Positions 2,514-49,650 of a stretch of DNA of 56,750 nucleotides are shown here, one piece after another. The stretch covers positions 1 to 56,750 of the forward strand of contig CAMBIR010000007.1 in the NCBI GenBank assembly GCA_945867665.1. The letters are read 5' to 3'. Below the pieces are notes generated by a model. It was not told the DNA's origin. It saw only the letters and a list, made by a program, of their open reading frames with translations, and ran no database searches. This DNA is from an uncultured Bacillota bacterium. Lineage in GTDB: Bacteria; Bacillota_I; Bacilli_A; RF39; UBA660. Both the position numbers and the translations under genes were made by a program. How positions within the stretch are numbered: position 1 is the stretch's first letter; each line of letters starts with the position of its first letter.

Positions 2514-2542
2514 TTGAATATTTTTTTATATTATGGTAGAAT
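2514..2542 (+). promoter_or_regulatory. Probable sigma-A-type promoter of the DGR operon
   Basis: TTGAAT at 2514-2519 and TAGAAT at 2537-2542 are separated by exactly 17 bp, and the -10 is extended by TGG. It lies 37 nt before the first DGR target gene. No other equally good promoter is evident before the reverse transcriptase, so the accessory genes, TR and RT may be co-transcribed from here (inference). Confidence 0.6.
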
Positions 2543-2578
2543 TTTAGTGTAGGAATATAGGATATGAGGTGATGGCTA

Positions 2579-4297
2579 GTGAAATATAAGAAATTATTAT
2601 TTGTGATAATCATTATTATAGGCGTTATGTTTAGTTTAATGCTTGCTACTAGTTATGCTTGGTATTCTTTTAGTGCAGGTTCTACTACTTTTAATGCAGT
2701 TACTAGTGATAAGGATGTAGATGTTCGTTTTATAAAGGGAGAGTATATTAATAATACATTAGCTGTTCCTATTTCTAATAATGAAATAGATCAATATTCA
2801 GATAAGCATCAATTTATTGTTAGAACGAAAAATAATAAAGAAAATAATCAAATATTATTAAAAATATCTTTAGTTGATATTGAGATAGATACTAATTTAA
2901 GAGATAAATCTCTTTATGTTGAATTATATTATCAAGGAGAAAAAGTTAGTACAGTTACTGGAGATCAACTATCAATAAGTGGGGCAAAAACTAAATTACT
3001 TAAAACAGTTGAGTTAGAAGATAATGTCGATAATAACTTTGAAGTTAGAGTATATTTGTTGGATAGTGGTGATCAATCAAAACTTATGGGATTGCATTTA
3101 AGTGCTAAAATACAAACAGAAGTTGTATCTCGATTAAAGACAAATATTAGTGATTATAGTGATGCTGATATTAGAATATCTTCTATAACAATTGATGGTG
3201 CAAGTAGTGATTCCTTGCCAGTAGATGGTTATTATACAATGAGTTCTACTTGTAGTAAGGGAAGTACTTTAAGTTGGAATAAATATAGTAAGACAATTAC
3301 TTATAGTAAGGGAAGTAAAGTTGGGGATAGTTGTAGTTTAGTGTTTACTAAGGATACTAGTACGAAATTATTAAATACAGTAAGTGTTGGTAGTTATGTA
3401 AAATATATGGGAAATAATGGCTGCGATGGTAATCATTGTGCTGGGGATAATGCAAATTATGTTAGTGATGACGATATGGGATATTGTAATGGTACTTCTT
3501 ATGGGTTTATTGTAAATGGTTGGCGTGTTGCTTATATTAAAGATAATAGTGCTTATTTGGTTAGTGCTGGTGCACCTGAGTGTGTAGCCACTTATGTAGA
3601 AAATATTTCTGCTAGTACTAGTAATCAGTCACTTAGTTCCAACTATTATTATGGAAGTGGATATGTATTTGATGAAGTAAAAGGGAAATATCGTTTGACA
3701 GGGGTTACTTCTAGTACTTTATCTTGGAGTAGTAATTATAATAGTATTATAGAAAATACTCCTTATACTTGTAAAAGTACTTCTTCAACAGAAACTTGTG
3801 CGACAATGTATAAAGTTATAGCATATTCTTCTTCTACGCAAGGAACCGCTATTACTTATAAAAATTATGAAGGAGCAGGAGTAGTTAATCATATTGCTCA
3901 TTTGAATAAGGCAGCTTTAAAATATTGTAATCCAAACTATGCTTATAATGGAGTGTGTGACGTGACTAGTAGTTGGAGTATTAATGATAGTGATTATCAA
4001 ATTATTACCACAAATATGGGAACAAAAAAAACACTTAGTAATTGTAATGGTGATTATGGAAGTAGGGCATGCGGATTTAATAATGACTTAATTGATAATG
4101 GAGGGTATTATTGGTTTGCTACACCTTATAGCGCTTCCTCGGAGTATACGTTCCACTGGGGTCCGCTTAGCCGGTACGTGTACAATCGCCGCCTCTCGAA
4201 TGTTGCGAACGGCGTGCGCCCAGTCCTACGTCTTCGGTCATCGGTCAGCGTGATGAGTGGAAGTGGAACATATAAGGATCCATATGTGATTCAATAG
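2579..4297 (+). CDS. DGR target protein 1: TasA-like N-terminus with variable C-type-lectin-like C-terminus
   Basis: A 572-residue secreted or surface protein. Residues 5-27 form a hydrophobic signal segment ending in an SYAWYSFSAGS motif like that of SipW-processed TasA/CalY proteins, followed by a TasA-like beta domain to about residue 188. A small beta module spans about 195-265. The rest is a C-type-lectin/formylglycine-enzyme-like fold with NGCDGNHC, NGWRVAY, YYWFATP and GVRPVLRL. Residues about 518-551 are encoded by VR1, which matches the template repeat, so this gene is a DGR target that can receive adenine-directed variation. The start is GTG, preceded by AGGTGAT; the nearby ATG at 2572 runs into a stop. 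A paralogous lectin lies at 6986. What it binds is unknown. Confidence 0.88.
   Translation: MKYKKLLFVIIIIIGVMFSLMLATSYAWYSFSAGSTTFNAVTSDKDVDVRFIKGEYINNTLAVPISNNEIDQYSDKHQFIVRTKNNKENNQILLKISLVDIEIDTNLRDKSLYVELYYQGEKVSTVTGDQLSISGAKTKLLKTVELEDNVDNNFEVRVYLLDSGDQSKLMGLHLSAKIQTEVVSRLKTNISDYSDADIRISSITIDGASSDSLPVDGYYTMSSTCSKGSTLSWNKYSKTITYSKGSKVGDSCSLVFTKDTSTKLLNTVSVGSYVKYMGNNGCDGNHCAGDNANYVSDDDMGYCNGTSYGFIVNGWRVAYIKDNSAYLVSAGAPECVATYVENISASTSNQSLSSNYYYGSGYVFDEVKGKYRLTGVTSSTLSWSSNYNSIIENTPYTCKSTSSTETCATMYKVIAYSSSTQGTAITYKNYEGAGVVNHIAHLNKAALKYCNPNYAYNGVCDVTSSWSINDSDYQIITTNMGTKKTLSNCNGDYGSRACGFNNDLIDNGGYYWFATPYSASSEYTFHWGPLSRYVYNRRLSNVANGVRPVLRLRSSVSVMSGSGTYKDPYVIQ
4130..4228 (+). repeat. DGR variable repeat VR1
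   Basis: This 99-bp stretch matches the template repeat at 5754-5849. Most differences fall on template adenines (about 16), with two cytosine changes and one extra codon in the AAC run. It encodes the surface between ASS and GVRP of target 1. Its GC-rich codons contrast sharply with the AT-rich gene around it. The 3' part (GGCGTGCGCCCAGTCCTACG) is shared with VR2 but differs from TR at the end, as expected for an IMH versus IMH* pair. Confidence 0.95.
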
Positions 4298-4329
4298 AAT
4301 AATAAAATGTTTAATGGAGGTAGATTGTT

Positions 4330-4764
4330 TTGAGTGTATTTCATGTTTTAGAAATAGGAAGGCAACTTCATCGAAATACGGTATTTATTATTGATTGTTA
4401 TGATAGGTATTATATTTATGATAAAGATTGTTATGTTATTTATCAAATTTTTCATTTTGATATTCATGGGGAGAAAAATATTTTTATTACCAATAAAATT
4501 GAGTACCTTCCTTATTTGATAAAGAAGTTAGAAGAAGAGAGAATAGATTATAAAGTTTTAGGTAAAAGACATGGATATAATATTATTTCTGAAAATACCT
4601 TTTTAGATAATCGGTATTGTAAAACTTTAAAAAAAGGAAAGTTAGTCTATCAAAGAACAAAAAAACTTAATCAAATTTATCATCAGTTAAATTATTTATT
4701 AAAAGATAATCCTAAAAGGTTAACGCAAATTTTAAATCAAATTGAAGAATTTGTTTATGTATAG
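4330..4764 (+). CDS. MutS-domain-I-like (MSL-type) DGR accessory protein, copy 1
   Basis: Encodes 144 residues resembling the N-terminal mismatch-recognition domain of MutS: a beta-rich block (TVFIIDCYDRYYIYDKD) where MutS has its FYE-type segment, then PYLIKKLEEERIDYKVLG, and a helical tail. No MutS ATPase follows. MutS-like small proteins are a known class of DGR accessory gene, and position between target and TR fits that. It starts at TTG with GGAGG nine bases upstream and overlaps the next gene by eight bases. It resembles its neighbour at 4757 along its length, suggesting tandem duplication. The precise function in retrohoming is unknown. Confidence 0.6.
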   Translation: MSVFHVLEIGRQLHRNTVFIIDCYDRYYIYDKDCYVIYQIFHFDIHGEKNIFITNKIEYLPYLIKKLEEERIDYKVLGKRHGYNIISENTFLDNRYCKTLKKGKLVYQRTKKLNQIYHQLNYLLKDNPKRLTQILNQIEEFVYV

Positions 4765-5155
4765 TGATTATTTAACTTGGAAGGAAAAATATCCAAATAG
4801 TGTTGTTCTGATAAAAAGTGGTTCTTTTTACCGTACTTATGATAATGATGCAATTATTCTTTCTTATTTATGTTGCTATTATGTGATTAAAAATGTTTTA
4901 GGGTTTCCAATTCGTTCTTTATCTAAAATTTTAAAGAAATTAAAGAGGGAAGAAGTTAATTTTGTTGTAGATAATGATGTTCATTTTTCTTTTGAAAATG
5001 ATGATAATTATTTAACTTTATTGAATCAATCATTTGAAGTATATAAGTTAAGTGTTAGAATTGAAAAGATTTATGATTATTTGAATGAGAATATTGAAAG
5101 AAAATTTATAAAGAAAGTAATTGATGAGATAGAGGAGATAATAAATGAGAGATAA
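4757..5155 (+). CDS. MutS-domain-I-like (MSL-type) DGR accessory protein, copy 2
   Basis: Encodes about 132 residues beginning YSDYLTWKEKYPNSVVLIKSG, which matches the MutS N-terminal pattern of a tyrosine-rich opening and a VVLIKSGSFYRTY segment, the place of the MutS FYE motif. The C-terminal third is helical and charged. ATG at 4757 is chosen because it aligns with the MutS-like start and overlaps the previous stop codon, which suggests translational coupling; an upstream TTG at 4742 is possible. The next gene starts inside its last codons. Role inferred from context and fold resemblance only. Confidence 0.6.
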   Translation: MYSDYLTWKEKYPNSVVLIKSGSFYRTYDNDAIILSYLCCYYVIKNVLGFPIRSLSKILKKLKREEVNFVVDNDVHFSFENDDNYLTLLNQSFEVYKLSVRIEKIYDYLNENIERKFIKKVIDEIEEIINER

Positions 5156-5495
5156 ATTAAAGATTATTATGTTATATAAAAAAGTTGTTTCTAAATATCT
5201 TGGCTTTGAATTGGTTTTTTCTAAGAAACATTATTATTTAAAAGATTTAGTAGAAAAAGAATTATTTTCTTTGTTAAAAGAAATTTATATTGTTAATGAA
5301 TTATCTCAAAATCGTGATACTTTAGAGAAAAAGAGGAGTTTAGTTGGTAGAGTTAAATATTTGAATTTTTTATTTGAGATGTTAGTTGATTTTAAAATTA
5401 TGAGTGAGAAGCAATATAAAGTTTTGCATATTGAGTTGGAAAATATTTATTATTCTTTAGTAGGATGGATAAAGTATGAGGGAAGAAGTTGTTAA
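5145..5495 (+). CDS. Avd-like four-helix DGR accessory protein, copy 1
   Basis: Encodes 116 residues, almost all helical and strongly basic. The C-terminal part (LFEMLVDFKIMSEKQY... and LVGWIKYE) matches the signature of the Avd/S23-type four-helix bundle, whose members often end in a GGWIK-like motif. Avd proteins form basic pentamers that bind the DGR reverse transcriptase and nucleic acid, and are required for mutagenic retrohoming in the characterised phage system. GAGGAGATAAT upstream gives a strong ribosome binding site. The gene overlaps both neighbours. Confidence 0.75.
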   Translation: MRDKLKIIMLYKKVVSKYLGFELVFSKKHYYLKDLVEKELFSLLKEIYIVNELSQNRDTLEKKRSLVGRVKYLNFLFEMLVDFKIMSEKQYKVLHIELENIYYSLVGWIKYEGRSC

Positions 5496-5745
5496 TTATT
5501 TAAGATTTTTAGATAATGAAGTTTTAGAAAAGATTCCTAATATTGAAAGAGAAACTTATCATGAATTAGTTAGTTTAAGTTATGGATTATTAAATTCTAA
5601 AAATATTTTAGAAGATATTAAAAGAATTAATTTTTTAGCAAATCTTCTTGTTCAAAAGAGAATGATTAGTTATAATTTATATATAGAATTTGGAGAGAGG
5701 ATAAATAATATTATTATGTCTTTGAAGAGTTCTATGAAGGTGTAG
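5476..5745 (+). CDS. Short Avd-like DGR accessory protein, copy 2
   Basis: Encodes 89 residues, predicted all helical (for example ILEDIKRINFLANLLVQKRM and IEFGERINNIIMSLKSS). It resembles copy 1 in the helix containing INFLANLLVQKRMISYNLY versus LNFLFEMLVDFKIMSEKQY. It is shorter than a typical Avd and lacks the WIK ending, so it may form a mixed oligomer with copy 1 or be a diverged paralogue. It overlaps copy 1 by 20 bases and ends eight bases before the template repeat. Confidence 0.6.
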   Translation: MREEVVNYLRFLDNEVLEKIPNIERETYHELVSLSYGLLNSKNILEDIKRINFLANLLVQKRMISYNLYIEFGERINNIIMSLKSSMKV

Positions 5746-5753
5746 AATTGTTA

Positions 5754-5849
5754 AGCGCTTCCTCGACGAATACGTTCAACTGGAATCCGAATAACCGGAA
5801 CGTGAACAACAACAACTCGAATAATGCGAACGGCGTGCGCCCATTCCTA
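5754..5849 (+). repeat. DGR template repeat (TR)
   Basis: This 96-bp, adenine-rich but otherwise GC-rich segment is the invariant donor for VR1 and VR2. It contains four consecutive AAC codons (5805-5816). Read in the VR frame it encodes ASSTNTFNWNPNNRNVNNN and so on, meaning that nearly every variable codon is AAC or AAT. Mutating the adenines of such codons samples many amino acids while avoiding stops. It sits between the accessory genes and the RT, the standard DGR order. Its 3' end (CCATTCCTAAA) differs from both VRs (CCAGTCCTACG). Confidence 0.95.
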
Positions 5850-6047
5850 AATGATTTGGGGATATGATTAAGGTTATATTTGAATATTATTTAGGACAGA
5901 TTTTATTCCTTGTAATTTTTACAAAAATTAAATAAGTTCAAATTAGTGCTAGTAATAGAAAAAAGTGAAAAGGCTAAGGAGGAAAAAGACTTATTTAGAG
6001 AAAAATATATTGAGTTGTATTTTTCTCTAAGTAAATCTTTATAAGAA
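5850..6047 (+). ncRNA. TR-RT spacer with a 13-bp hairpin and an in-frame mini-ORF
   Basis: This non-repeat spacer probably belongs to the TR RNA that primes and supports cDNA synthesis (inference from known DGRs). A perfect 13-bp stem pairs 5995-6007 with 6018-6030 around a 10-nt loop, 17 nt before the RT start. A 32-codon GTG-started ORF (5946-6044) is in frame with the RT and ends in TAA at 6042-6044. It has coding-like character (EKAKEEKDLF), so it may be a remnant or leader. The RT itself has only a weak ribosome binding site. Confidence 0.45.
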
Positions 6048-6989
6048 ATGAAAAGAGTTGGTAATATTTATCAGAGAGTAGTTCATATTCAAAATATTGA
6101 GTGTGCTTTTAATGAAGTAATGAAAACTACTAGAAATAAAAATAAGGTTATCTTATTTGATGATTATAAAATGGTATATATTTACCGGATTTATAAAGAT
6201 ATGCTTAATTTTACTTATCTTCCATCTTTGGTGAATGAATTTATTATTTATGAGCCAAAGAAGAGATTAATTGTTAGCCAAAATATTTATGATAAAGTTA
6301 TTAATCATTTGGTTAGTAGGGAGTTGCTGATTCCTTATTTAACTCCTTGTCTAATTGATAGTAATGTTGCTAGTAGAAAGGGAAGAGGAACTTCTTATGG
6401 AAGAAAACTTTATTTTCAATATCGTAATATTATGAATCAAAAATATTCTAAATATTATTTATTGAAAATAGATATTCATGGTTATTTTAGGCACATTAAA
6501 CATGATATTTTGAAAGAGAAGATAAGAGGGAAAATAAAGGATAGAAGAGCTATTGATTTGATTTTTAAGATTATTGATAGTTATCAAAATGGTTGTCCAA
6601 TTGGATTTATGACTAGTCAAATATTTGCTATTTTTTATTTAAATGATATTGATCATTTTATTAAAGAAGAGTTAAAAATTAAATATTATATTCGTTATCA
6701 AGATGATTTTTTGCTGATTCATGAAGATAAACAATATTTAAAGAAATGTTTGGATAAAATAAAGATAAAGTTAGCAGAGATTGGACTAGAAGTAAATGAT
6801 AAGACTAGAATTTATAAAAATAATGAAAATATGAATTTTATTGGTGTTAGGAAGAATAAGAAGTTTAGTAATAGACATCGTACAATAAAAAAAGTTAATC
6901 AAAGAATTAAATTGTATAAAGAGAATAAAGTTACTTTTTCTTCGATTATTTCTAGTGTTTCTTATTTGGAAAGAGGTGAGTTTCAGTGA
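6048..6989 (+). CDS. DGR reverse transcriptase
   Basis: A 313-residue group-II-intron-like reverse transcriptase. The catalytic Asp of motif A is D142 (LLKIDIHGYF). Motif 4 reads IGFMTSQ (185-191), matching the DGR signature IGxxxSQ that replaces the QG motif of other RTs and is linked to adenine infidelity. The active-site box is Y217QDD220. The compact size and absence of maturase or endonuclease domains fit DGR RTs. It makes error-prone cDNA from the TR RNA, which then replaces VR1 or VR2. TAA at 6042 forces the start to ATG 6048. The last bases overlap the second target gene. Confidence 0.95.
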   Translation: MKRVGNIYQRVVHIQNIECAFNEVMKTTRNKNKVILFDDYKMVYIYRIYKDMLNFTYLPSLVNEFIIYEPKKRLIVSQNIYDKVINHLVSRELLIPYLTPCLIDSNVASRKGRGTSYGRKLYFQYRNIMNQKYSKYYLLKIDIHGYFRHIKHDILKEKIRGKIKDRRAIDLIFKIIDSYQNGCPIGFMTSQIFAIFYLNDIDHFIKEELKIKYYIRYQDDFLLIHEDKQYLKKCLDKIKIKLAEIGLEVNDKTRIYKNNENMNFIGVRKNKKFSNRHRTIKKVNQRIKLYKENKVTFSSIISSVSYLERGEFQ

Positions 6990-8950
6990 TGAAAAAAAGA
7001 GTATTTATAATAGGTATTATTATTTTAAGTTTTTTCTTTATCTGTCTTTTTAGAGAGAATAATACTAAATCTCTTTTATCTTTAAAAGAAGTTAAGTATA
7101 ATGGGAATAATTTACAGATAAGTATAGATGGAAATAGTAGTGATACTTTACCTACTAGTGGAAATTATTATTTAGTTCGTTATGATTGTAAAAGTAGTGA
7201 TACTACTGTTTATTGGAATAAAACAACTTATACTTTAGATGTTAGTAATAGTAATAAAAAAGGGGGAGTATCTTGTTACTTGGATTTTCAAACTCATCCT
7301 AAGTTAAGTGATATGCCTGCGGGTAGTTATGTTTCATATACTGGTAATAATGGATGTGAAGGAAATCATTGTAAGGGAGAGAACGCTAATTATGTTGATG
7401 ATGCGACGAATATGGGATATTGCTCTAACTCTTCCTATCGTTTTTCAGTTAATGGTTGGCGAATAGGGTATTCAAAGGATGATAGTGCTTATTTAATTAG
7501 TGCAGGAGCTCCTGAATGTTTATGTACTGATTCATCTGGTAATGCGGGAACTAGTTGTAGCAATTATGAAACTACAAGTGGAGTGCCTAAGCATTTGGCG
7601 AATTTAAATCAGGCATCTTTAAAATATTGTAATCAAGATTATGCTTATAACGGAGTGTGTGATGGGACGAGTAGTTGGAATGTTAATGGGAATGATTATC
7701 AGGAATTGACTTTAAATTTAAGCACTAAAAAACCATTAAATTCAAGTAGTAGTACTTATCGAAAAAAATCATATGGAGTAGGTTATGATTTAATTGATAA
7801 TGGAAGTTATTATTGGTTTGCAACTCCTATTAACGCTTCCTCGCCGAATTCGTTCTACTGGACTCCGTCTTACCGGTACGTGAGCATCGACTACTCGGAT
7901 ATTGCGTACGGCGTGCGCCCAGTCCTACGTCTTCAGTCTTCGGTCATCGTTTTAGGAGGAAGTGGTATTTATGAAGATCCTTATACGATAGGAAATAATA
8001 GTTTTAGTATTAATAATGGAAATAAATATGTTAATGCTAGCGAGGCTTCTCAGGTAAAGTTAACTTTAGTTGGGCTATCTGGTGTTAGTCAGATGTGTAT
8101 TAATACAGATAGTACAGGATGTAGTAATTATGTTGATTTTGCCTCTAGTTATACGTTGAATTGGAGTGGGCTAGCTGATGGGAAAAAGACTGTTTATGTT
8201 TACTATAAAGATAGTAGTGATAATATTGTTGCTTCAATGAATCGTAGTATTATTTTAGATAAAACGGCTCCTACTAATAATAGTGTTAGTATAGGGGATG
8301 GTAAAGGGCTTACTCGAACTTTGACAATTTCTAGTACTGGTGCTAGCCAGATGTGTTTTTCTAATACCAGTAGTAGTGCTAGCAATTGTACGAATTGGGT
8401 AGATTATGCTACTAGTTATACTTGGAGACTTAGTGATGGAACTGGTAGTAAGACAGTATATGCTTTCTTTAAGGATGAAGCTGGTAATATTAGTAGTAAA
8501 ACAGCTACTACAACAGTTACTTCTATTGTAGAATTTGTTGTTAATGAAGATTTTAGTGATACTACTTATGATAGTAATATTACTGTTGCTGGTAGTGGAA
8601 GTTATCCTTGGGTCGTTTCTAATGGACAGTTTCAAAGTAATAATAAAGGTGTAAATAGTTCTACTAGTACTTCTACTATTCAGTTTACACCAACAGTTGG
8701 ATCAACTTTATCTTTTGATTATGGAGTATCTTCTGAAGCTAATTATGATAAATTAACGATTACTTTAGCAGGAAATAATACAACAACAACATTAGTTAAT
8801 GCAATTAGTGGTACTAAAACAGGTACAGTATCAGGTATTGCTTTATCGGAAGGGGTTACTTATACTTTAACACTATCTTATTCAAAGGATGGTAGTAGTG
8901 CTAGTGGTTCTGATATTGGTTATATTCGTAGTTTGAGAATTCAATCATAA
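6986..8950 (+). CDS. DGR target protein 2: lectin-like domain with internal VR and C-terminal Ig-like modules
   Basis: A 654-residue exported protein. It has a signal or anchor helix (residues 5-23), a small beta module (DGNSSDTLPTSG), then a C-type-lectin-like domain paralogous to target 1 (NGCEGNHC, NGWRIGY, SAGAPEC, YYWFATP, GVRPVLRL). VR2 encodes residues about 283-315. Unlike most DGR targets, the protein continues for over 300 residues: two Ig-like repeats with SQMC motifs and a TAPTN linker, then a beta-sandwich starting VNEDFSD. GTG 6986 and ATG 6989 are both served by GAGGTGAG; either overlaps the RT stop, suggesting coupled translation. Likely a surface-displayed binding protein; ligand unknown. 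Confidence 0.87.
   Translation: MMKKRVFIIGIIILSFFFICLFRENNTKSLLSLKEVKYNGNNLQISIDGNSSDTLPTSGNYYLVRYDCKSSDTTVYWNKTTYTLDVSNSNKKGGVSCYLDFQTHPKLSDMPAGSYVSYTGNNGCEGNHCKGENANYVDDATNMGYCSNSSYRFSVNGWRIGYSKDDSAYLISAGAPECLCTDSSGNAGTSCSNYETTSGVPKHLANLNQASLKYCNQDYAYNGVCDGTSSWNVNGNDYQELTLNLSTKKPLNSSSSTYRKKSYGVGYDLIDNGSYYWFATPINASSPNSFYWTPSYRYVSIDYSDIAYGVRPVLRLQSSVIVLGGSGIYEDPYTIGNNSFSINNGNKYVNASEASQVKLTLVGLSGVSQMCINTDSTGCSNYVDFASSYTLNWSGLADGKKTVYVYYKDSSDNIVASMNRSIILDKTAPTNNSVSIGDGKGLTRTLTISSTGASQMCFSNTSSSASNCTNWVDYATSYTWRLSDGTGSKTVYAFFKDEAGNISSKTATTTVTSIVEFVVNEDFSDTTYDSNITVAGSGSYPWVVSNGQFQSNNKGVNSSTSTSTIQFTPTVGSTLSFDYGVSSEANYDKLTITLAGNNTTTTLVNAISGTKTGTVSGIALSEGVTYTLTLSYSKDGSSASGSDIGYIRSLRIQS
7832..7927 (+). 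repeat. DGR variable repeat VR2
   Basis: This 96-bp copy of the template repeat has the same length as TR. Between its second base and the GCGTGCGCCCA block, 15 positions differ, every one of them an adenine in TR. This is the hallmark of adenine-specific mutagenic retrohoming. A single G/A difference at 7833 lies at the very 5' edge, probably outside the transferred tract. The 3' end CAGTCCTACGTCTTC equals that of VR1. Confidence 0.96.
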
Positions 8951-8962
8951 TAGGAGGAAGTT

Positions 8963-9778
8963 ATGAAGAGGAAGAATATTGTTAGAATTATAATTGCGGG
9001 GATTATTTCTTTTATTATTTTGATTATTGTTTTGTTATTGCTTTCTAGGACTAAGGATGGGCGTTTATTAGATTTGTATAAGACTAGTTGGGGTAATGAG
9101 GCAAAGGATGAGATGGTTGGATTTTTATATGATAGGTATCAAGTAGAAGATGGATATAAGTTTTTTCTTGTTGGTAGTGATATGAATCATGATGTTGAAG
9201 ATACTTATGGGTTATATTATAGGGAGAAGAAAACTATTTTTGAAGAATTTTCTTCTATTTATAAGAGTTATATTCTACTAGATTTGATGAATTATGATAC
9301 CCATGGATATGATGATAAGAGAAGTTGTTATTTTTATCCTTTAGATGAATTTAAGGATGCTTATTTAAAGTATTATGGTGTGATAGATGATTTTAAGATT
9401 GATACTGATGAAAAATATTCTCCTAGGTTTTATTTAGATAATGATAAGATTTGTATTACTAAAGATGTGGAAGGAAAACAATATAGTAAGGCGATTGATA
9501 CTTATTTTGTAAATGGTATTTATAAGGATAATGAGATTATTATTTATGAGAGAGTTGCTTTTGTTAAGATAGGGGATAATTTTATTGATTTTTATGGGGA
9601 TTATTCGATGAAAGATAAGGTATATTCTTTAGATAAAAGTAAGACTGATTTATCTTTTATTCATAATTCTAAGATTGTATCTAATGTACTTATGCAGTAT
9701 AGAGATAAGTTTCCTATTTATGAATATCATTATAAAAAGGGTGAGTCAACTTATTATTTGGAGAGTATTTCAAGATGA
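8963..9778 (+). CDS. Membrane-anchored protein of unknown function
   Basis: Encodes 271 residues with one N-terminal transmembrane helix (about 9-28), followed by a soluble, acidic, tyrosine-rich domain expected outside the cell. No recognisable family motif or catalytic signature is seen. AGGAGG precedes the ATG, only 12 bases after target 2 ends, and the gene overlaps the next one by four bases (ATGA), so it is probably part of the same transcript as the DGR. It could help anchor or handle the displayed lectins, but this is only context. Confidence 0.6.
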   Translation: MKRKNIVRIIIAGIISFIILIIVLLLLSRTKDGRLLDLYKTSWGNEAKDEMVGFLYDRYQVEDGYKFFLVGSDMNHDVEDTYGLYYREKKTIFEEFSSIYKSYILLDLMNYDTHGYDDKRSCYFYPLDEFKDAYLKYYGVIDDFKIDTDEKYSPRFYLDNDKICITKDVEGKQYSKAIDTYFVNGIYKDNEIIIYERVAFVKIGDNFIDFYGDYSMKDKVYSLDKSKTDLSFIHNSKIVSNVLMQYRDKFPIYEYHYKKGESTYYLESISR

Positions 9779-10308
9779 AGAAGGTAATGACCAGGTTAGG
9801 GATAATGTTAGTTAGTATTCTAATTTGTTATTTAATCTTCTTCTTTTTTTATTCTAGAAAGATAGAAGTAAAGTTATCTAGATGTATTGATGGAGATACT
9901 GTAGAAGTATTTTTAGATGGAGAAAAGAGGAAAATTAGGTTGTTAGGAATTGATACTCCAGAGATATCTTTTCATAAAAATGAAGAATATGGAACTGAGG
10001 CTTTAGAATATACTTGTTCTTTATTGAAAAGTTCTCGCCATATTTATTTAGAGTACGATAGAAATAGTAATCGATATGATAAGTATGGAAGAACATTAGG
10101 ATGGCTATTTGTTGATGAGGGGAATTTAAGTGAATTGTTGGTGAAGAATGGTTATGCGAAGGTTAGATATATTTATGGAGATTATCAATATTTAGATAAT
10201 TTATGTTCTTTACAAAGAGAGGCTTATTCAAAAAAATTAAGAGTATGGTCTATTATGGATGATTATTCTAGTAATTATTGTATGAAAAATGGGTTAACAA
10301 ACAGTTAG
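9775..10308 (+). CDS. Membrane-anchored thermonuclease (SNase-like)
   Basis: Encodes 177 residues of the staphylococcal nuclease family, a calcium-dependent nuclease for DNA and RNA. One membrane helix (about 8-28) is followed by the OB-fold. Catalytic elements are present: CIDGDTVEV, the Arg and Asp in IRLLGIDTPE, and the second Arg in DKYGRTLGW. It ends near RVW, at the usual family end. It overlaps the preceding membrane-protein gene. It is likely exposed outside the membrane, where it could degrade extracellular DNA. Whether it has any role with the DGR is unknown. Confidence 0.9.
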   Translation: MKKVMTRLGIMLVSILICYLIFFFFYSRKIEVKLSRCIDGDTVEVFLDGEKRKIRLLGIDTPEISFHKNEEYGTEALEYTCSLLKSSRHIYLEYDRNSNRYDKYGRTLGWLFVDEGNLSELLVKNGYAKVRYIYGDYQYLDNLCSLQREAYSKKLRVWSIMDDYSSNYCMKNGLTNS

Positions 10309-10350
10309 ATAGGTGTTATAATACTTAGAAATTGATTTGGAGGTACTTAT

Positions 10351-11889
10351 ATGTTTGGTGGTAGACTGAGTAAATTTCAAGAAAGACTTAGGAATATTCG
10401 ATTGACAAAGAGTAAAAAAAATAAATTTCAAGTAGAAAATGAAAAATTTGTTTGTGAAAAAGTAGAAGAGATTAAGAAAAAAGTTAGGGAAGATGGTACG
10501 GTTTATCGCAAAAGAATTTCAAGAGGAACAGGGAAAAAAGAAGACAAGTTTAAAAAAAATATTTCTTTTCCTATAGACGCTAAGGATGAAGTAAAAGAAG
10601 ATGTTAAAGTTGATTTCATGCTTAAAGGTGGGGTGTTTGTTAATCAAGAGAAGGAGTCCTTTCAAGAAGATGAAAAAAGTACTTATGGGGAAGATGAGGT
10701 ACAAAGTAAAGTTAGAAAGATAGAAGAGAGAGGGCCTAAAATTCCTAAGAAGAGGGTAATTTATTCTTGGGGTGATGAAGAAAATCATCATCAAGATGTT
10801 GGTGAGAAAAGTAAGGATAGTCAGTTAAAAGAACTAGGTAGCGATATTATTGATAAGATTAAGAATCAATTTGAATGTTACTTGGATGAGGTTGATGTTT
10901 TAGCAGGAGAGATTTATTTTGTTGGGGAACTTCTAGAAAATGAAATTGAGCTTTCAAAAGTTAATTCTTTAAGAAAAAGAATTAATGAATTAATTGATAA
11001 AGTGAATGCCATTATTCAACAATATCATTTATATAAGAAAAATTTATATCTTGATGAAGTAATTGAGATAGAAGATTCTTCGATTGTTGATGATATGATA
11101 GCTTATCGTGATTTATTAGATTCTTCGATGGACAAGAAGAAATTTGTAAAAGAATATCAAGCGTTAGAAGAGTTTTGGTTATTATATCGTCATTTGAGTG
11201 AGGTAAAAGAAGAGACTTTATCCTTAATGGATAGGCATCAAGAGAAAGAAAATACTTATTTAGATCGAGATAAAAAATATTTAGAGATACAGAAAAATTT
11301 ATCTATAGAAAGTGATGCTTTGTTAAAATGTAATGAAGATATTATGAAACAAGATGCATATTTTCAGGAACTTAATTCTAAAATAGGTTTAATTCAAAAA
11401 GAAGAATATTTGACTTATCAGCTAAGAGGAATGGATGATTTGCTTGGTCATGGTCTTAAATATATGGGCTTAATGCTATTATCTCCTTTTAGTGGTTTAC
11501 TTCCTTCTATTGGTTATCAGGCACTTTTGACAAGAAGAATGGTACAAAGTGCATATCATGGTCTTCATTTTGAAAAAAAGAGACATATTCATTATTACGC
11601 TAATGATTATGAGAGTGAAATCTTAGCTAAGTTATCTGATATTGATTATACTTCTTATTTGTTAAGTGATACACTAGATAATGTTCTACGGTTAAAAGAA
11701 GACTTTTTAAGGCAGTATCAATCAAATATTCCTTTATATGAAGATTTTTTAAAAAAGATAAATATTATGGAAGAAAAAATAATTCATCAGCAGAATCGAG
11801 TTAATATTATTTCTAAAAAATTAAAAAAGAGTCAAGAAAGAAATCAACATAAGATGATGAAGGTGCGTGATTTAAATCAAAATGATTAA
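10351..11889 (+). CDS. Large coiled-coil protein with a hydrophobic C-terminal segment
   Basis: Encodes 512 residues. The first 170 are Lys/Glu-rich and look disordered. Residues about 170-360 are long charged helices likely to form coiled coils. A hydrophobic stretch near residues 365-395 (KYMGLMLLSPFSGLLPSIGY) may insert in the membrane. Another helical region follows. GGAGGT precedes the start. I do not recognise the family. The architecture resembles cytoplasmic scaffold or cell-division-associated proteins, but nothing here proves that. Confidence 0.6.
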   Translation: MFGGRLSKFQERLRNIRLTKSKKNKFQVENEKFVCEKVEEIKKKVREDGTVYRKRISRGTGKKEDKFKKNISFPIDAKDEVKEDVKVDFMLKGGVFVNQEKESFQEDEKSTYGEDEVQSKVRKIEERGPKIPKKRVIYSWGDEENHHQDVGEKSKDSQLKELGSDIIDKIKNQFECYLDEVDVLAGEIYFVGELLENEIELSKVNSLRKRINELIDKVNAIIQQYHLYKKNLYLDEVIEIEDSSIVDDMIAYRDLLDSSMDKKKFVKEYQALEEFWLLYRHLSEVKEETLSLMDRHQEKENTYLDRDKKYLEIQKNLSIESDALLKCNEDIMKQDAYFQELNSKIGLIQKEEYLTYQLRGMDDLLGHGLKYMGLMLLSPFSGLLPSIGYQALLTRRMVQSAYHGLHFEKKRHIHYYANDYESEILAKLSDIDYTSYLLSDTLDNVLRLKEDFLRQYQSNIPLYEDFLKKINIMEEKIIHQQNRVNIISKKLKKSQERNQHKMMKVRDLNQND

Positions 11890-44300: not shown

Positions 44301-45380
44301 GTGGACGATAAGAATATACAAGGAGGAAATGAACAAGTTGTTAATGAAAATAAAGGGAGAGGTTTATTTTATGCAGTAATAGCAGTTGCTACATTCATTA
44401 TTATGGCTGTTGGTGCAACATTCGCGTATTTTACTGCTACAACAAATAGTGCTAATTCTTCTGTAAAGACTGGATCAACTACTTTAAAATTAAAGTATAT
44501 TGGTTATGAAGCGGGTTGGATGAATCAAGATTTAATTCCGGCTAATACAGAAGTTACAGAGTATTCATTTGAAAATCAGAATGATACTACGATTAAGGCT
44601 GATAGTTCTACTGGAGAGGCTAGTTATAAACTTTTAAAAAATGGTTTGTGTAAAGATGATTTTGGTAACTCTATTTGTAGTGTTTATGTTTTTCAAGTAA
44701 GAAATGATGCTAATTCTCCTCAAACGGTTGCTTTAAATGTTGTTAGTGAAGAAAATTCATTTGCTAGTTTGAATGCCATGGCGTATGAAATTTCTTTACC
44801 TGAAGATTTGACTGATTATAACTCAAATGATGCTAATAATGGACTTACTGATCCTAAGTTTACCAAAAAGGATGGAACTGATCCGGAGAGCGGGGTTATT
44901 GATGTAGTTGGGATTGGATTTGATTCTAACGATAGTTCTAAGTCGACGGTTCTTCCTTTAAAAAATGGTAGTAATGAGGGCTATTCTCCAATTTTTATCA
45001 ATCGCAAAGGAGTCACTAAAACTTTATTAAAGTATATTGAATCAAGTGATTCAGATTTAGGAACTTCTGTTAAGAAACCTGCTATTGATCGATTATTAGT
45101 ATCTACTGTTGAGAGTGATGGAAGTCCAAAGACTTTTGAAAATGACAGTGATAAAAGTGTTAAAGTTGCGGATGATATTGAAATTGATGGTGGAGCAACT
45201 ATGACTTTTGCCCTTGTTTTGTATATTAAGAATGCACAATCTGATCAAACAGCAACAGATGCTGCTAAGAGTTTTACTGGTAGTGTTGTTGTTAGTTCTG
45301 GTGATGGTTCTACTGGTGTTAGTGGTTCTATTGGGTTAGTGACTGAGGAAACTAAGAAAAATTTACAATCTCAACAATAG
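44301..45380 (+). CDS. TasA/CalY-like secreted fibre protein 1
   Basis: Encodes 359 residues. A cytoplasmic lead of about 20 residues precedes a signal helix ending AVGATFAYFTATTNSANS, the SipW-type motif of TasA and camelysin. The mature part begins with GSTTLKLKYIGYEAGWMN and ends with a beta-rich TFALVLYIKNAQSD segment. TasA proteins polymerise into matrix fibres. It starts at GTG after GAGGAGGAG. Stands alone between its own promoter and terminator. Confidence 0.85.
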   Translation: MDDKNIQGGNEQVVNENKGRGLFYAVIAVATFIIMAVGATFAYFTATTNSANSSVKTGSTTLKLKYIGYEAGWMNQDLIPANTEVTEYSFENQNDTTIKADSSTGEASYKLLKNGLCKDDFGNSICSVYVFQVRNDANSPQTVALNVVSEENSFASLNAMAYEISLPEDLTDYNSNDANNGLTDPKFTKKDGTDPESGVIDVVGIGFDSNDSSKSTVLPLKNGSNEGYSPIFINRKGVTKTLLKYIESSDSDLGTSVKKPAIDRLLVSTVESDGSPKTFENDSDKSVKVADDIEIDGGATMTFALVLYIKNAQSDQTATDAAKSFTGSVVVSSGDGSTGVSGSIGLVTEETKKNLQSQQ

Positions 45381-45397
45381 TAAATATATTTGAATCG

Positions 45398-45422
45398 AGA
45401 GTAATTAAATTACTCTTTTTTT
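45398..45422 (+). terminator. Terminator of TasA-like gene 1
   Basis: AGAGTAATT and AATTACTCT form a 9-bp stem around one base or a small loop, followed by T6. An IS200/IS605 remnant starts within its T run. Confidence 0.8.
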
Positions 45423-45671
45423 AATACAGTCTGTTCCATCATTATCGCCTACAATGATTGTAAGGATAATAAAAAGTATTACTGTGAAAGAAATATATAG
45501 ACTATGTCCTCAGGTAAAAAGAAATTATGGGGTGGTAATGTATGGAGCGCAGGATATTTTGTCAGTACGGTTGGCAAGAATGGGAATGAACAGCAAATAA
45601 AAAATTACGTTAAAAATCAAGGAAAAGAGTATACCAAAATTCATAGAGGACAATTGAATTTGTTTGACTAA
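45421..45671 (+). pseudogene. tnpA: Remnant of IS200/IS605 transposase TnpA
   Basis: The final part of a Y1 HUH transposase can be read: IQSVPSLSPTMIVRIIKSI, IYRLCPQVK, then after a one-base loss KLWGGNVWSAGYFVSTVGKN and the tail KIHRGQLNLFD. The His-hydrophobe-His and N-terminal half are missing. A palindrome near 45687-45708 followed by GGTTCAT looks like the element's right end. Confidence 0.85.
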
Positions 45672-45686
45672 GGGCATACAAGATAC

Positions 45687-45712
45687 TCCTTGGCTCTGCC
45701 GCGGGGAGGTTC
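45687..45712 (+). mobile_element. IS200/IS605-type right-end hairpin
   Basis: CCTTGGCTCTGCCGCGGGG forms an imperfect hairpin, followed by AGGTTCAT, as is usual for this family's right end. It abuts the IS1595-type relic, suggesting the IS inserted there. Confidence 0.6.
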
Positions 45713-45721
45713 ATAATAATC

Positions 45722-46378
45722 TCTTGTTTAGAAAAAATAAACAGTGGAAACAACTTAACTGGTAATATAGAATTGGATGAATACTATTTATCGGTCAATC
45801 TCAAGGAAACAAAAAAAGATAAAATGCCTAGAATATCGAAACTAAGAAAAACTAATGGAACAGGAAAACAAGGCATTAGTAGACATACCGTATGTGTTAC
45901 CTCATGCATTGATGAAAATACTCACATTATTTTTAAAGTAGCTGGTGCCGGAAATGTAACTTCAGATATGATTAGAAATACCCTAGTTGTTAAAATCAAA
46001 AATTAAAAAAAAGTGATAACTGACTGTAAAAGTTCGTATGAGAGTGTTGCTAAGGAAAATAATTGGAATTTAAAACAAGTAAAATCAAAGTGTTATAAAG
46101 ATAATGAAGGTAACATTTTAGCTAATATCAATTCTCTTCATTCTGAATTAACTATGTTTTTATCACGGTTTCATGGTGTTTCTACAAAACACCTACAGGA
46201 ATATTTAAATTGGTTTACTTTTTTAAAATATCAAAATTATTCAATAGATTATGTAAATCAAGTTGATGATTTTGAAAAAAAGACAATAACTAAATTAACT
46301 GAAATAAAATATTTTAATATTTGTAATAACTATAGCATATTTGATTTTTTTCAATTATACAAAGATTATAATTATTAG
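45722..46378 (+). pseudogene. Broken IS1595/ISXO2-type transposase
   Basis: A DDE transposase lacking its N-terminus. D (ELDEYYLSVN), D (ITDCKSSYE) and E (LHSELTMFLSRF) are present, then KHLQEYLNWF and a complete-looking end. A TAA at 46004-46006 interrupts the frame in the same phase, so the defect is a nonsense codon, not a frameshift. The two open parts are 45773-46006 and 46013-46378. Not functional unless read through. Confidence 0.85.
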
Positions 46379-46442
46379 CCTCCAAAATTTACAACATAGC
46401 GAAAATTTTTGTAAAAAAAACGAAACTCAAATATATAGGTAA

Positions 46443-46471
46443 TTGACTTTTATGTTAATATTTGCTATCAT
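46443..46471 (+). promoter_or_regulatory. Promoter of TasA-like gene 2
   Basis: TTGACT (46443-46448), 17-bp spacer ending ATTTGC, TATCAT (46466-46471) followed by TAAT. Very similar to the promoter of TasA-like gene 1, suggesting co-regulation. Confidence 0.75.
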
Positions 46472-46501
46472 TAATTTAAGATAATGATAAGGAGGATAGC
46501 G

Positions 46502-47482
46502 ATGAAGATGGGAAATGAATTGAAAAATGATGCTATTAATCCTGGGGGTAAAGGGGATAAAAATGATTTTGGTAATAAGACGAATACGTTTAATTTGATT
46601 ATTGGTATATCAACTTTACTTATTGCTATTTTAGGTGCAACTTTTGCATACTTTTCTGCAACGGCTAGAAGTAAAGAAAATGATGTAACAGTTAAGTCTG
46701 CTTATGTTAGTATTTCTTATGATGGTGGTACCGAGATAAAGGCTAGTAATTTGATTCCAGCGACACAACAAGTTGCTTTAACGAAGTATAAGAAAGTGGT
46801 TGATCCTTACAATGCGGAAACTGATGGTGAAATAGATACGGAATATGATACTTATAAAAATGATCCGAATAGGAGATGTGTGGATTCTAAAGGAAAAGAA
46901 GTTTGTTACGTTTATCAATTTTCTGTAATTAGTGATGGTGCTGAAGGGGAAAATACGGATATTTTGGCTTCTATTAAGGTTAATAAGAATGAGTTTTCTA
47001 ATCTTAGTTATTCTTTGTATGAAGTGACTTTTAGACCAGACCCAGAAGATGGGACAAAATATTTAAAAGATAAGTATGGTTTTGGTATAGTTGATAAGTA
47101 TGAATTGAGAAGTCAATTTACTAATATGGATAATAATCCTGATAATGTTGATTATGTTGGGGTTGGATTTAATAAATTTGATAAACCTGAGGATATTTTT
47201 GGAGACAACGGGGAGTTGACTAATACAATTAATCCTGTTAGTTGTATGTTTAAAAATGCTGACGATTTTTCGGATAAATCAAAAGATGATTCTTCGCGTT
47301 GTGGTTCTCTTTCTATTTCTAATAAAGTTAAACATACATATCAATTGGTTATTTGGTTAGAGGAGACAGGCGAAGTTCAAGATGAACAAGGAAAGACTTT
47401 TGAAGGTACTGTATCTATTGAAGTTAGTGGTGGATTAGATACTAGTGAATATGAGAATGGTCAAATTACTGGTAAGCAGTAA
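46502..47482 (+). CDS. TasA/CalY-like secreted fibre protein 2
   Basis: About 326 residues. Its signal helix ends AILGATFAYFSATARSKEND, again the SipW-type motif. The mature domain has SAYVSISYDGGTEIKASNLI and ends HTYQLVIWLEETGEV with a EGTVSIEVSGG strand. It is related to protein 1 in the signal and end strands. ATG 46502 has AAGGAGG six bases upstream. A terminator follows. Confidence 0.85.
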   Translation: MKMGNELKNDAINPGGKGDKNDFGNKTNTFNLIIGISTLLIAILGATFAYFSATARSKENDVTVKSAYVSISYDGGTEIKASNLIPATQQVALTKYKKVVDPYNAETDGEIDTEYDTYKNDPNRRCVDSKGKEVCYVYQFSVISDGAEGENTDILASIKVNKNEFSNLSYSLYEVTFRPDPEDGTKYLKDKYGFGIVDKYELRSQFTNMDNNPDNVDYVGVGFNKFDKPEDIFGDNGELTNTINPVSCMFKNADDFSDKSKDDSSRCGSLSISNKVKHTYQLVIWLEETGEVQDEQGKTFEGTVSIEVSGGLDTSEYENGQITGKQ

Positions 47483-47485
47483 AAG

Positions 47486-47510
47486 AGCAATTTTGCATTG
47501 CTTTTTTTTT
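47486..47510 (+). terminator. Terminator of TasA-like gene 2
   Basis: AGCAAT (47486-47491) and ATTGCT (47497-47502) form a 6-bp stem, followed by a nine-T run. Confidence 0.8.
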
Positions 47511-47547
47511 GTTTTTTTGATACTATTATAATAGAGGCGGTGATAGT

Positions 47548-48105
47548 TTGGAGGGTCATGTAAGACATAAAGATTTTTTCTATGTTGTGATACTTATTTT
47601 AACTTTTATTACCGTAATTGTTGGAGCAGCTTTTGCTTTGTATTCTTTCATTTATAGTCAAAAAGAAGGGACAAGTGCTGTTTATACTGGGACTTTATCG
47701 ATTGAATATTTATCTGGAGATATTATTGATTGTAATTATTTGTATCCACTTGATAATCCAACAATAGCTGCTGTTAACAATGTATATAAAAATAACTTTA
47801 GGGTTACGAATAAGGGAAGTTTAGATAGTCTATTACAAATTAAGATTGATATAACTTCTAATAATTTTTATGGAAATGAATTAAGATATGTTATTTATGA
47901 TTCTAGTCAAGAAGAAGTTGCAAATGGTAGTATTGAAGGGAGTAATGCAAATATTATTGCAAATAGTATTTATTTAAAGAACAATACTACTGAAGAATTT
48001 ACCTTAATGATTTGGTTACAAGAATCGGGTAGTAATCAAAATAATCAAATGAAAAGAAATTTAAGTGGGACAATTGAAGTTGATGCTTCACAAAAGATTG
48101 ATTAA
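47548..48105 (+). CDS. TasA-like small exported protein
   Basis: Encodes 185 residues. The signal helix (residues about 10-33) ends VGAAFALYSFIYSQ, a looser version of the SipW motif. A beta domain follows (GTLSIEYLSGDIIDCNYL) ending FTLMIWLQESGS and SGTIEVDAS, as in proteins 1 and 2. It may act as an anchor or minor fibre subunit, like TapA. TTG start with GGTGAT upstream. Twelve bases before sipW. Confidence 0.8.
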   Translation: MEGHVRHKDFFYVVILILTFITVIVGAAFALYSFIYSQKEGTSAVYTGTLSIEYLSGDIIDCNYLYPLDNPTIAAVNNVYKNNFRVTNKGSLDSLLQIKIDITSNNFYGNELRYVIYDSSQEEVANGSIEGSNANIIANSIYLKNNTTEEFTLMIWLQESGSNQNNQMKRNLSGTIEVDASQKID

Positions 48106-48117
48106 GGAGGAATAAGA

Positions 48118-49650
48118 ATGGGTGACGATAAAAAGACTTTTAGTGATTTATTTTCTAATTCTATGAGTAATGATGAAGAGAAAGATAAATTAGAACCAAA
48201 AAATAGTTCTGTTACTTTTGACCATATTTTTAATGATAATATTTTTGAAAATAATGAGATGAAAAAAAGTAATGAAGATATAAATTTTGACTTAGAAGAA
48301 AAATCACTAGAAAAAAATAATGATAACTTAGAAAACAAAGTAGAGGGTATAAGTGCTAATTTATTTTTTCAAAGTGATAAGGATGATTTGAAAAATCATG
48401 TCAGTAATAAAGAAGAAAAATTAGAAGATGCAGGGGATTTTGAAAAAAATAGTTTAGAGGAGTCTAATAATTTATTTTTTCAGGGTAATGATAGTCAATT
48501 AAAAGCTTCTAATAGTGATGAATTAGAAAATGGAGTAGTTAGTATTCCAAAGAAAATAAAAAATAATGTGTTTTTTCAGTCAGATAAACCTGATTTAAAT
48601 AAATCTCTTTTTGATAAAAATACTGATGCGGATAATGCTCCTTATTCATTGAATGAGGCGAGAGTTAGTGAAAATATTTTTAACCATAGTGTGCCCGAGA
48701 AAAAAGAAGAGGTAAAATTGGAAAATACTGATTCTTTAGAAAGTAGTGTTGATAAAGAAGTACTTTTGCAACAGGGAGTAGGAAATGTTTTCTTTGATTC
48801 TTCTATTGATAATCGTATTAGTTCTCCAAAAGAGGAAAAACATGAAGAGAAAAAAATGGTTTCATCAAGTGATAGTGAGAATGATATAAAAAAATCTGAA
48901 GAGAGTATTAGTCCGTTTTTTTCGAATGAAGGAGAGAATTTAAAACAATTAAATTTTGGGTTAGATAAAATTAATTTAGTTGAAAATGATAATAAAGTAA
49001 AAAGAGTAAACAAACTAGAGGTTGATAAAATAAAACATTATGATGTTAAAATTGTTAAAAAGAAGGAGCCATTATTTAAATTTATTTTAGGAGTGATTTC
49101 TTATGCAATTTTTATTTGGTTATTGTTGATTGGAATTGCTTTACTTGTTTATGTTCTAGATATTAAAATTAGAGCTTCAAAAGGTGATTATAGTTCTCCT
49201 ACTTTTAATGCTTATGTTGTATTAACAGGAAGTATGTTGCCAGAAATACAGGTTAATGATGTTGTTGTGACGAAAAAGGTTGAAGCAGAATCTTTAAAAG
49301 TTGGGGACGTTATTACTTTTGCATCGGCTGACTCTAGATTTTTGAATACTATTATTACCCATAGAATTATTAAGAAAGAGTATGATTCTAAAACAAAAAC
49401 TTATTCCTTTCAGACACAAGGTGATAATAATAATGTAGCGGACAGTGCTTTAGTTCCTCAAAATAATATTTTTGGTAAAGTTATATTAAAAATTCCTAAA
49501 TTGGGTTATTTACAAGAATTTTTAGCTTCTGATGGTGGTTGGATTATTGTTATATTAATTCCTTGCTTAACTGTTATTTCTTATGATATTGTTAGATTAG
49601 TTAAGGGATTAAAAAGGAAGAAGTACAAAAATATAACTGTTCAAAAATAA
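48118..49650 (+). CDS. sipW: SipW-type signal peptidase with a long repetitive cytoplasmic extension
   Basis: A 510-residue protein. Residues about 317-348 and 477-500 are membrane helices around an ER-type signal peptidase: Ser372 in TGSMLPEI and His415 in ITHRI form the Ser-His dyad of SipW. It should process the TasA-like neighbours. The first 315 residues are an acidic, disordered-looking region, absent from ordinary SipW (about 190 residues), with repeats NLFFQS (81), NLFFQG (118), NVFFQS (150), NVFFDS (223) and SPFFSN (about 264). These FF motifs may bind a partner protein. Lies between TasA-like genes. Confidence 0.9.
   Translation: MGDDKKTFSDLFSNSMSNDEEKDKLEPKNSSVTFDHIFNDNIFENNEMKKSNEDINFDLEEKSLEKNNDNLENKVEGISANLFFQSDKDDLKNHVSNKEEKLEDAGDFEKNSLEESNNLFFQGNDSQLKASNSDELENGVVSIPKKIKNNVFFQSDKPDLNKSLFDKNTDADNAPYSLNEARVSENIFNHSVPEKKEEVKLENTDSLESSVDKEVLLQQGVGNVFFDSSIDNRISSPKEEKHEEKKMVSSSDSENDIKKSEESISPFFSNEGENLKQLNFGLDKINLVENDNKVKRVNKLEVDKIKHYDVKIVKKKEPLFKFILGVISYAIFIWLLLIGIALLVYVLDIKIRASKGDYSSPTFNAYVVLTGSMLPEIQVNDVVVTKKVEAESLKVGDVITFASADSRFLNTIITHRIIKKEYDSKTKTYSFQTQGDNNNVADSALVPQNNIFGKVILKIPKLGYLQEFLASDGGWIIVILIPCLTVISYDIVRLVKGLKRKKYKNITVQK

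Follow-up and report, generated by a model that had tools for sequence, protein, structure and literature searches.

The locus described here raises the question of whether a single reverse transcriptase (RT) and a single template repeat (TR) diversify several genes in a bacterial chromosome, how many genes this involves and whether the process has continued since the split from the closest relative. The window, a stretch of 56,750 nucleotides, represents contig C7 of an uncultured, small gut-type bacterium (G000), the genome of which was assembled into 28 contigs with a total size of 1.31 Mb. A preliminary description had placed a complete diversity-generating retroelement (DGR) at positions 2514-8950, with one TR, two variable repeats (VRs) and an RT with the motif IGFMTSQ. 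All three repeats were present at the positions given there, and the RT motif was found along with an intact YQDD motif. The completeness of the element was borne out by adenine-limited differences between the TR and the VRs, an RT that is intact and of the DGR type, an accessory variability determinant (Avd) and a conserved TR-RT spacer (Table 1). The end of the proposed interval was correct, but its start was slightly wide since the first target gene, T1, begins at about 2579.

Table 1. Features of the DGR cassette, in window coordinates.
Feature	Coordinates	Strand	Description
T1, target gene 1	2579..4297	+	572 aa; ORF; paralogous to T2; sibling species have orthologues at this locus; hydrophobic segment N-terminal, VR1-carrying domain C-terminal
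VR1, variable repeat	4130..4228	+	99 nt; 3-nt insertion relative to TR
orfA (MSL-A), divergent MutS-domain-I-like accessory	4330..4764	+	MSL family profile, E 1e-36
orfB (MSL-B), MutS-domain-I-like accessory	4742..5155	+	KSGSFY motif, long C-terminal helix; PF01624, E 7.5e-7
orfC (Avd-C), Avd	5145..5495	+	NF033474, E 5e-8; phrog_3206, E 2e-7
orfD (Avd-D), second, short Avd-like protein	5476..5745	+	89 aa; Avd profile by iterated search
TR, template repeat	5754..5849	+	96 nt
IMH* GC-rich core GGCGTGCGCCC	5832..5842	+	in TR; identical core in VR1 (4211-4221) and VR2 (7910-7920)
TR-RT spacer	5850..6047	+	probably a structured section of the template RNA
RT, reverse transcriptase	6048..6989	+	313 aa; PF00078, E 1e-17
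RT motif IGFMTSQ	6600-6620		
RT motif YQDD	6696-6707		
T2, target gene 2	6986..8950	+	654 aa; ORF; sibling orthologues; VR2 ends the first domain, further C-terminal region beyond
VR2, variable repeat	7832..7927	+	96 nt

The VRs are located in frame inside open target genes, and the TR lies outside these, between orfD and the RT gene. The interval between VR1 and the TR holds four overlapping accessory genes, orfA to orfD, of which two encode MutS-domain-I-like (MSL) proteins and two encode Avd-like proteins. This gene order is common to the window and a sibling species (G004). The nearest named record, 'Bacilli bacterium isolate SUG1421' (L018), has an RT that is 88% identical and is apparently the same contig as contig C31 of G004. 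The repeats stand out as GC islands, with GC fractions of 0.50 for the TR and 0.5-0.6 for the VRs in a window with a GC fraction of 0.30.

When the TR was aligned with VR1 and VR2 and the substitutions were counted, the differences were concentrated on TR adenines in both VRs (Fisher p = 7e-9 for VR1 and 3e-8 for VR2). VR2 differs from the TR by 15 substitutions at adenines (9 to T, 3 to C and 3 to G); the earlier claim that its substitutions all fall on adenines holds for the core of the repeat but fails at two edges, where repeat positions 2 (G>A) and 91 (T>G) also differ. For VR1, about 16 substitutions had been claimed, and we counted 16 at adenines. VR1 further differs at the C of position 14, shares the T>G of position 91 and has the insertion, which the earlier description had left out and which the present TR cannot produce. 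The adenine focus was evident for each VR alone (p = 1e-5 to 2e-10). For repeat positions 1-90 of a pool of seven distinct VRs, four from this genome and three from the sibling species, 110 of 210 TR adenines were altered versus 11 of 420 other bases (p = 4e-50), and the altered adenines had become T in 56, G in 30 and C in 24 cases. Position 91 (5844 in the TR) is a T in the TRs of both species and a G in 7 of the 7 distinct VRs, which represents the IMH*/IMH difference. All 29 adenines before the IMH in the TR are at codon positions 1 or 2, none at position 3; changes of these adenines can yield no stop codon, and about 1e17 proteins are encodable.

The locus is very probably a DGR of the chromosome, with mutagenic retrohoming as its mode of action. 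In this process, the TR and the spacer would be transcribed, the RT together with Avd would make a cDNA copy of the TR in which the bases opposite adenines are random, and the cDNA would then replace the VR in any gene with a matching GC-rich scaffold and an IMH.

The two flanking targets are paralogous but different, and our data support the suggestion that one RT and one TR serve both of them. The count of two targets was too low, however. Three further VRs on contig C1 match the same TR. Two targets are thus the lower limit, and one TR would serve at least five VRs in four genes, with T1 and T2 adjacent to the cassette and T3 and T4 far off on another contig. T3 (648 aa; L016 5432-7378, minus strand) contains two tandem domains, each with a VR (VR3a and VR3b), T4 (1041 aa) carries VR4 at its end, and a paralogue that lacks a VR is located on contig C11. 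With six non-adenine differences from the TR before the IMH, VR4 may be rewritten rarely.

A hydrophobic segment at the N-terminus and a VR end of the GVRP type characterise the targets, which may be displayed binders. The preliminary description called them lectin-like, but a C-type lectin fold of the VR domain was not confirmed. Searches against Pfam with the VR domain matched only DUF6273 at E = 0.17, a PDB profile search gave no match for the domain, and a structure model of it from four sequences had a pLDDT of 28. Elsewhere in the window (44301-49650), two proteins with a leader of the ATFAYFTAT/ATFAYFSAT type are followed by a signal-peptidase-like gene, as judged by eye. The T1 leader, SYAWYSF, resembles these leaders, likewise by eye, so T1 may share the export route of these proteins.

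We also compared the locus with those of relatives within the genus. In genomes G003, G002 and G001, the T1 and T2 homologues adjoin each other after the same upstream gene with no cassette in between, and the downstream genes are the same in G003 and G002 and fewer in G001. The VR region in G001 and G002 is without the GC-rich scaffold and mostly AT-rich. G003 contains three genes with GC-rich VRs; 28 positions vary among these VRs, and 22 of the 28 are TR adenines. Neither an RT nor a TR was found in the G003 assembly, which is 88% complete, so the cassette of this genome may be either lost or unassembled. The third of its VR-bearing genes (L062 1-344, contig C204) is interrupted by the contig start, and the missing cassette may be located just beyond it. 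The simplest reading of these comparisons would be that, in the lineage of G003, G004 and the window species, a DGR gained control over surface genes that had been ordinary paralogues, and that the place of the cassette changed. An older DGR that was lost more than once is a possible alternative.

The VR-bearing domains themselves also vary among relatives. The orthologue in G004 of the gene on contig C11, identified by the same neighbours, has an extra, VR-bearing domain. In G004, the T3 orthologue comprises a single domain, the VR-like stretch of which deviates from the G004 TR at 13 non-adenine sites. T3 in the window species has two domains with identical VRs, located in an identical run of 288 nt (325 nt with one mismatch), and the domains are otherwise diverged. 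A T4 homologue without a VR domain in the sibling species was considered as another case of gain or loss, and was set aside since its place is not syntenic.

A second, separate and complete DGR was identified on contig C3 (L015, G000:C3:23000-42000, positions 7672-11661, minus strand). Its order is target-MSL-Avd-TR-RT-target and it has its own, different TR (around 9698-9834 of L015). The last 641 nt of its two targets are identical, VR included, and this tract ends in diverged flanks. In the sibling assembly, a stop or frameshift interrupts the RT of the second DGR (L036, G004:C55, 6629-7575), which could be either a real loss or a sequencing error.

Identical tracts of such lengths are beyond chance, which makes gene conversion likely and an assembly artefact possible. 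The genome is apparently a metagenome assembly, in which population-variable repeats collapse easily, and the identity of VR3a with VR3b and of the VRs in both targets of the second DGR might have arisen in this manner. However, the tracts of 288 and 641 nt extend far past the VRs, the flanks at their ends are diverged and were assembled separately, and the second DGR of the sibling species has two non-identical VRs. We consider an artefact a realistic explanation for the identical pairs, yet not the probable one. Gene duplication has previously been proposed for multi-VR DGRs in DiGReF (PMC3521204). Overall, the comparisons indicate that VR-bearing domains are gained and duplicated, and apparently homogenised by gene conversion.

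The doubling of both accessory genes is what is new in a system that is otherwise of a known kind; most of the related loci fetched contain one MSL and one Avd gene. The PF01624 match of orfB scored 29.8 bits versus a cut-off of 20.6, a PDB profile search gave the same assignment, and a structure model of the protein (pLDDT 86) matched domain I of MutS and of MSH3/MSH6 (Z 11.6-12.7), followed by a long helix, while orfA is linked to MutS domain I through the MSL family profile only. The NF033474 match of orfC, at 33 bits, falls under its cut-off of 80, and the bAvd/DivGenRetAVD profile match of the protein likewise stays below the curated cut-offs. Membership of orfD in the Avd family is by iterated profile only, a weak profile similarity, and the protein scores in no library; it is kept in the sibling species. 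In the GxFY motif, which corresponds to GDFYE of Taq MutS in the alignment, the mismatch-stacking Phe is retained in 13 of 16 aligned MSL proteins, including orfB, and is replaced by Arg or Lys only in three MSL-A copies, orfA and two relatives. In the MSL tree, orfA clusters with the copies from G004 and G020 in an MSL-A clade with high support (99/99) and long branches. Strong matches to this type came from only 3 of the 386 family genomes searched, in two genera, G020 belonging to another genus.

As estimated from the divergence between the two species, the RT and all four accessory genes are under purifying selection, with omega values of 0.34 for orfA, 0.35 for orfB, 0.20 for orfC, 0.32 for orfD and 0.15 for the RT, and all of these reading frames are intact. 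That the extra copies are decaying duplicates with no role of their own is suggested by the missing Phe in MSL-A and by the short length of Avd-D and its failure to score in any library. It is nevertheless rather unlikely, since both species keep intact reading frames for orfA and orfD, with omega values like those of their partners, and since a copy of the MSL-A type is also present in another genus.

MSL proteins are already known as DGR accessories (PMC10053308). The host genome of the cassette also contains a full-length MutS frame. In the eukaryotic MSH6/MSH2 pair, the task of reading mismatches is divided between the subunits. The MSL proteins here could perhaps bind the mismatched cDNA:VR heteroduplex, and we suggest, more tentatively, that MSL-A with MSL-B and Avd-C with Avd-D work as mixed oligomers. 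By analogy with MSH6/MSH2, the doubled MSL proteins would constitute a two-part mismatch reader for retrohoming, with one Phe subunit and one basic subunit, which along with a mixed Avd ring would protect or steer the cDNA:VR heteroduplex against the host MutS and let one TR rewrite many targets; this we regard as an unlikely proposal.

We also compared the repeats of the two species. Their TRs differ at 10 non-adenine positions, at nine of which neither has an A. At these nine sites, VR1 and VR2 have the base of their own TR in 9 of 9 cases, VR3 in 8 and VR4 in 7, and each of the three VRs of the sibling species has the base of the sibling TR in 9 of 9. The VRs thus appear to be overwritten from the TR of their own species at non-adenine sites while the adenine sites scatter, and this match indicates that retrohoming went on once the species had separated. 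As comparative evidence for rewriting since the split it is strong, and it does not by itself prove activity today, although we infer that the DGR is active at present. A relic that was active until recently, with targets that are no longer rewritten and VR differences that are frozen, would account for the many non-adenine changes in VR4 and in the T3 orthologue of the sibling, and for the broken RT frame in the assembly of its second DGR. This seems very unlikely, since VR1, VR2, VR3 and the VRs of the sibling have no more than 1-2 non-adenine differences from their own TR despite the ten differences between the TRs, and the RT combines a low omega value with intact motifs.

The best solved relative of the RT is the Bordetella phage BPP-1 DGR RT (8ub7, E = 3e-20), and RT relatives (E <= 1e-20) are present in 174 of 386 family genomes, the weaker of these matches being putative DGRs only. 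The suggestion that the RT belongs to another class, with coincidental repeats, can be dismissed with near certainty: its weak similarity to group II intron maturase, retron and antiviral (DRT) families yielded scores of 75/300, 39/235, 57/200 and 35/550 bits, all far below the curated cut-offs (75 of 300 for maturases), while the BPP-1 relationship, the SQ motif, the Avd and the adenine-limited repeats all point to a DGR. A prophage origin was considered and is not favoured for the recent past, the flanks being chromosomal and syntenic between the two species. Among the matches listed, phage RTs are at most 42% identical, and matches on viral contigs are mostly 28-35% identical, with one short segment at 55%.

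Aligned with that of the sibling over 199 columns, the spacer shows 15 mismatches and 7 gap columns, as compared to a pS of 0.34 for the RT. It folds better than shuffled sequences (z = -3.6), although conservation is likewise high (82-88%) in other stretches between genes. Conservation above that of the RT synonymous sites, along with folding, is as expected of a template RNA, of which the spacer is probably a part. A search for DNA hairpins or inverted repeats just after the VRs identified none better than shuffles.

The cassette resembles the BPP-1 DGR (bRT, Avd, mtd) in its RT class, the presence of Avd, the TR-spacer-RT order, the adenine-limited TR/VR differences and the IMH versus IMH* distinction. 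It differs in that it is chromosomal rather than of phage, has at least five VRs in four genes, contains an additional Avd-like gene as well as two MSL genes, and shows no clear hairpin after the VR. DGRs of the MSL type, with Avd and a MutS-domain-I-like accessory, were reportedly described by Wu et al. in 2018. The MSL-Avd-TR-RT arrangement of such DGRs (PMC10053308) is found here, as in most close relatives of the window RT, but with both accessories doubled. Treponema denticola DGRs likewise consist of a core cassette and remote target genes with VRs of the same TR, with target turnover at the strain level (PMC4891356). They differ in having an HRDC accessory, and in the present system synteny reveals targets without a cassette as well as VR-domain gain. 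Multi-VR DGRs in DiGReF, such as that of Marichromatium with three VRs in one ORF (PMC3521204), share with this system several VRs per TR, tandem VR domains per ORF and paralogues without VRs, but here the identical VRs are located within long identical tracts with diverged flanks.

The system bears on how target genes are acquired and lost by DGRs, and on the roles of the accessory proteins. The genus offers a natural series, from targets without a cassette or VR scaffold, to scaffolds with the cassette elsewhere or unassembled, to a cassette between its targets. Within the cassette, the MutS-like and the Avd helpers each form a pair of conserved paralogues, between which labour may be divided.
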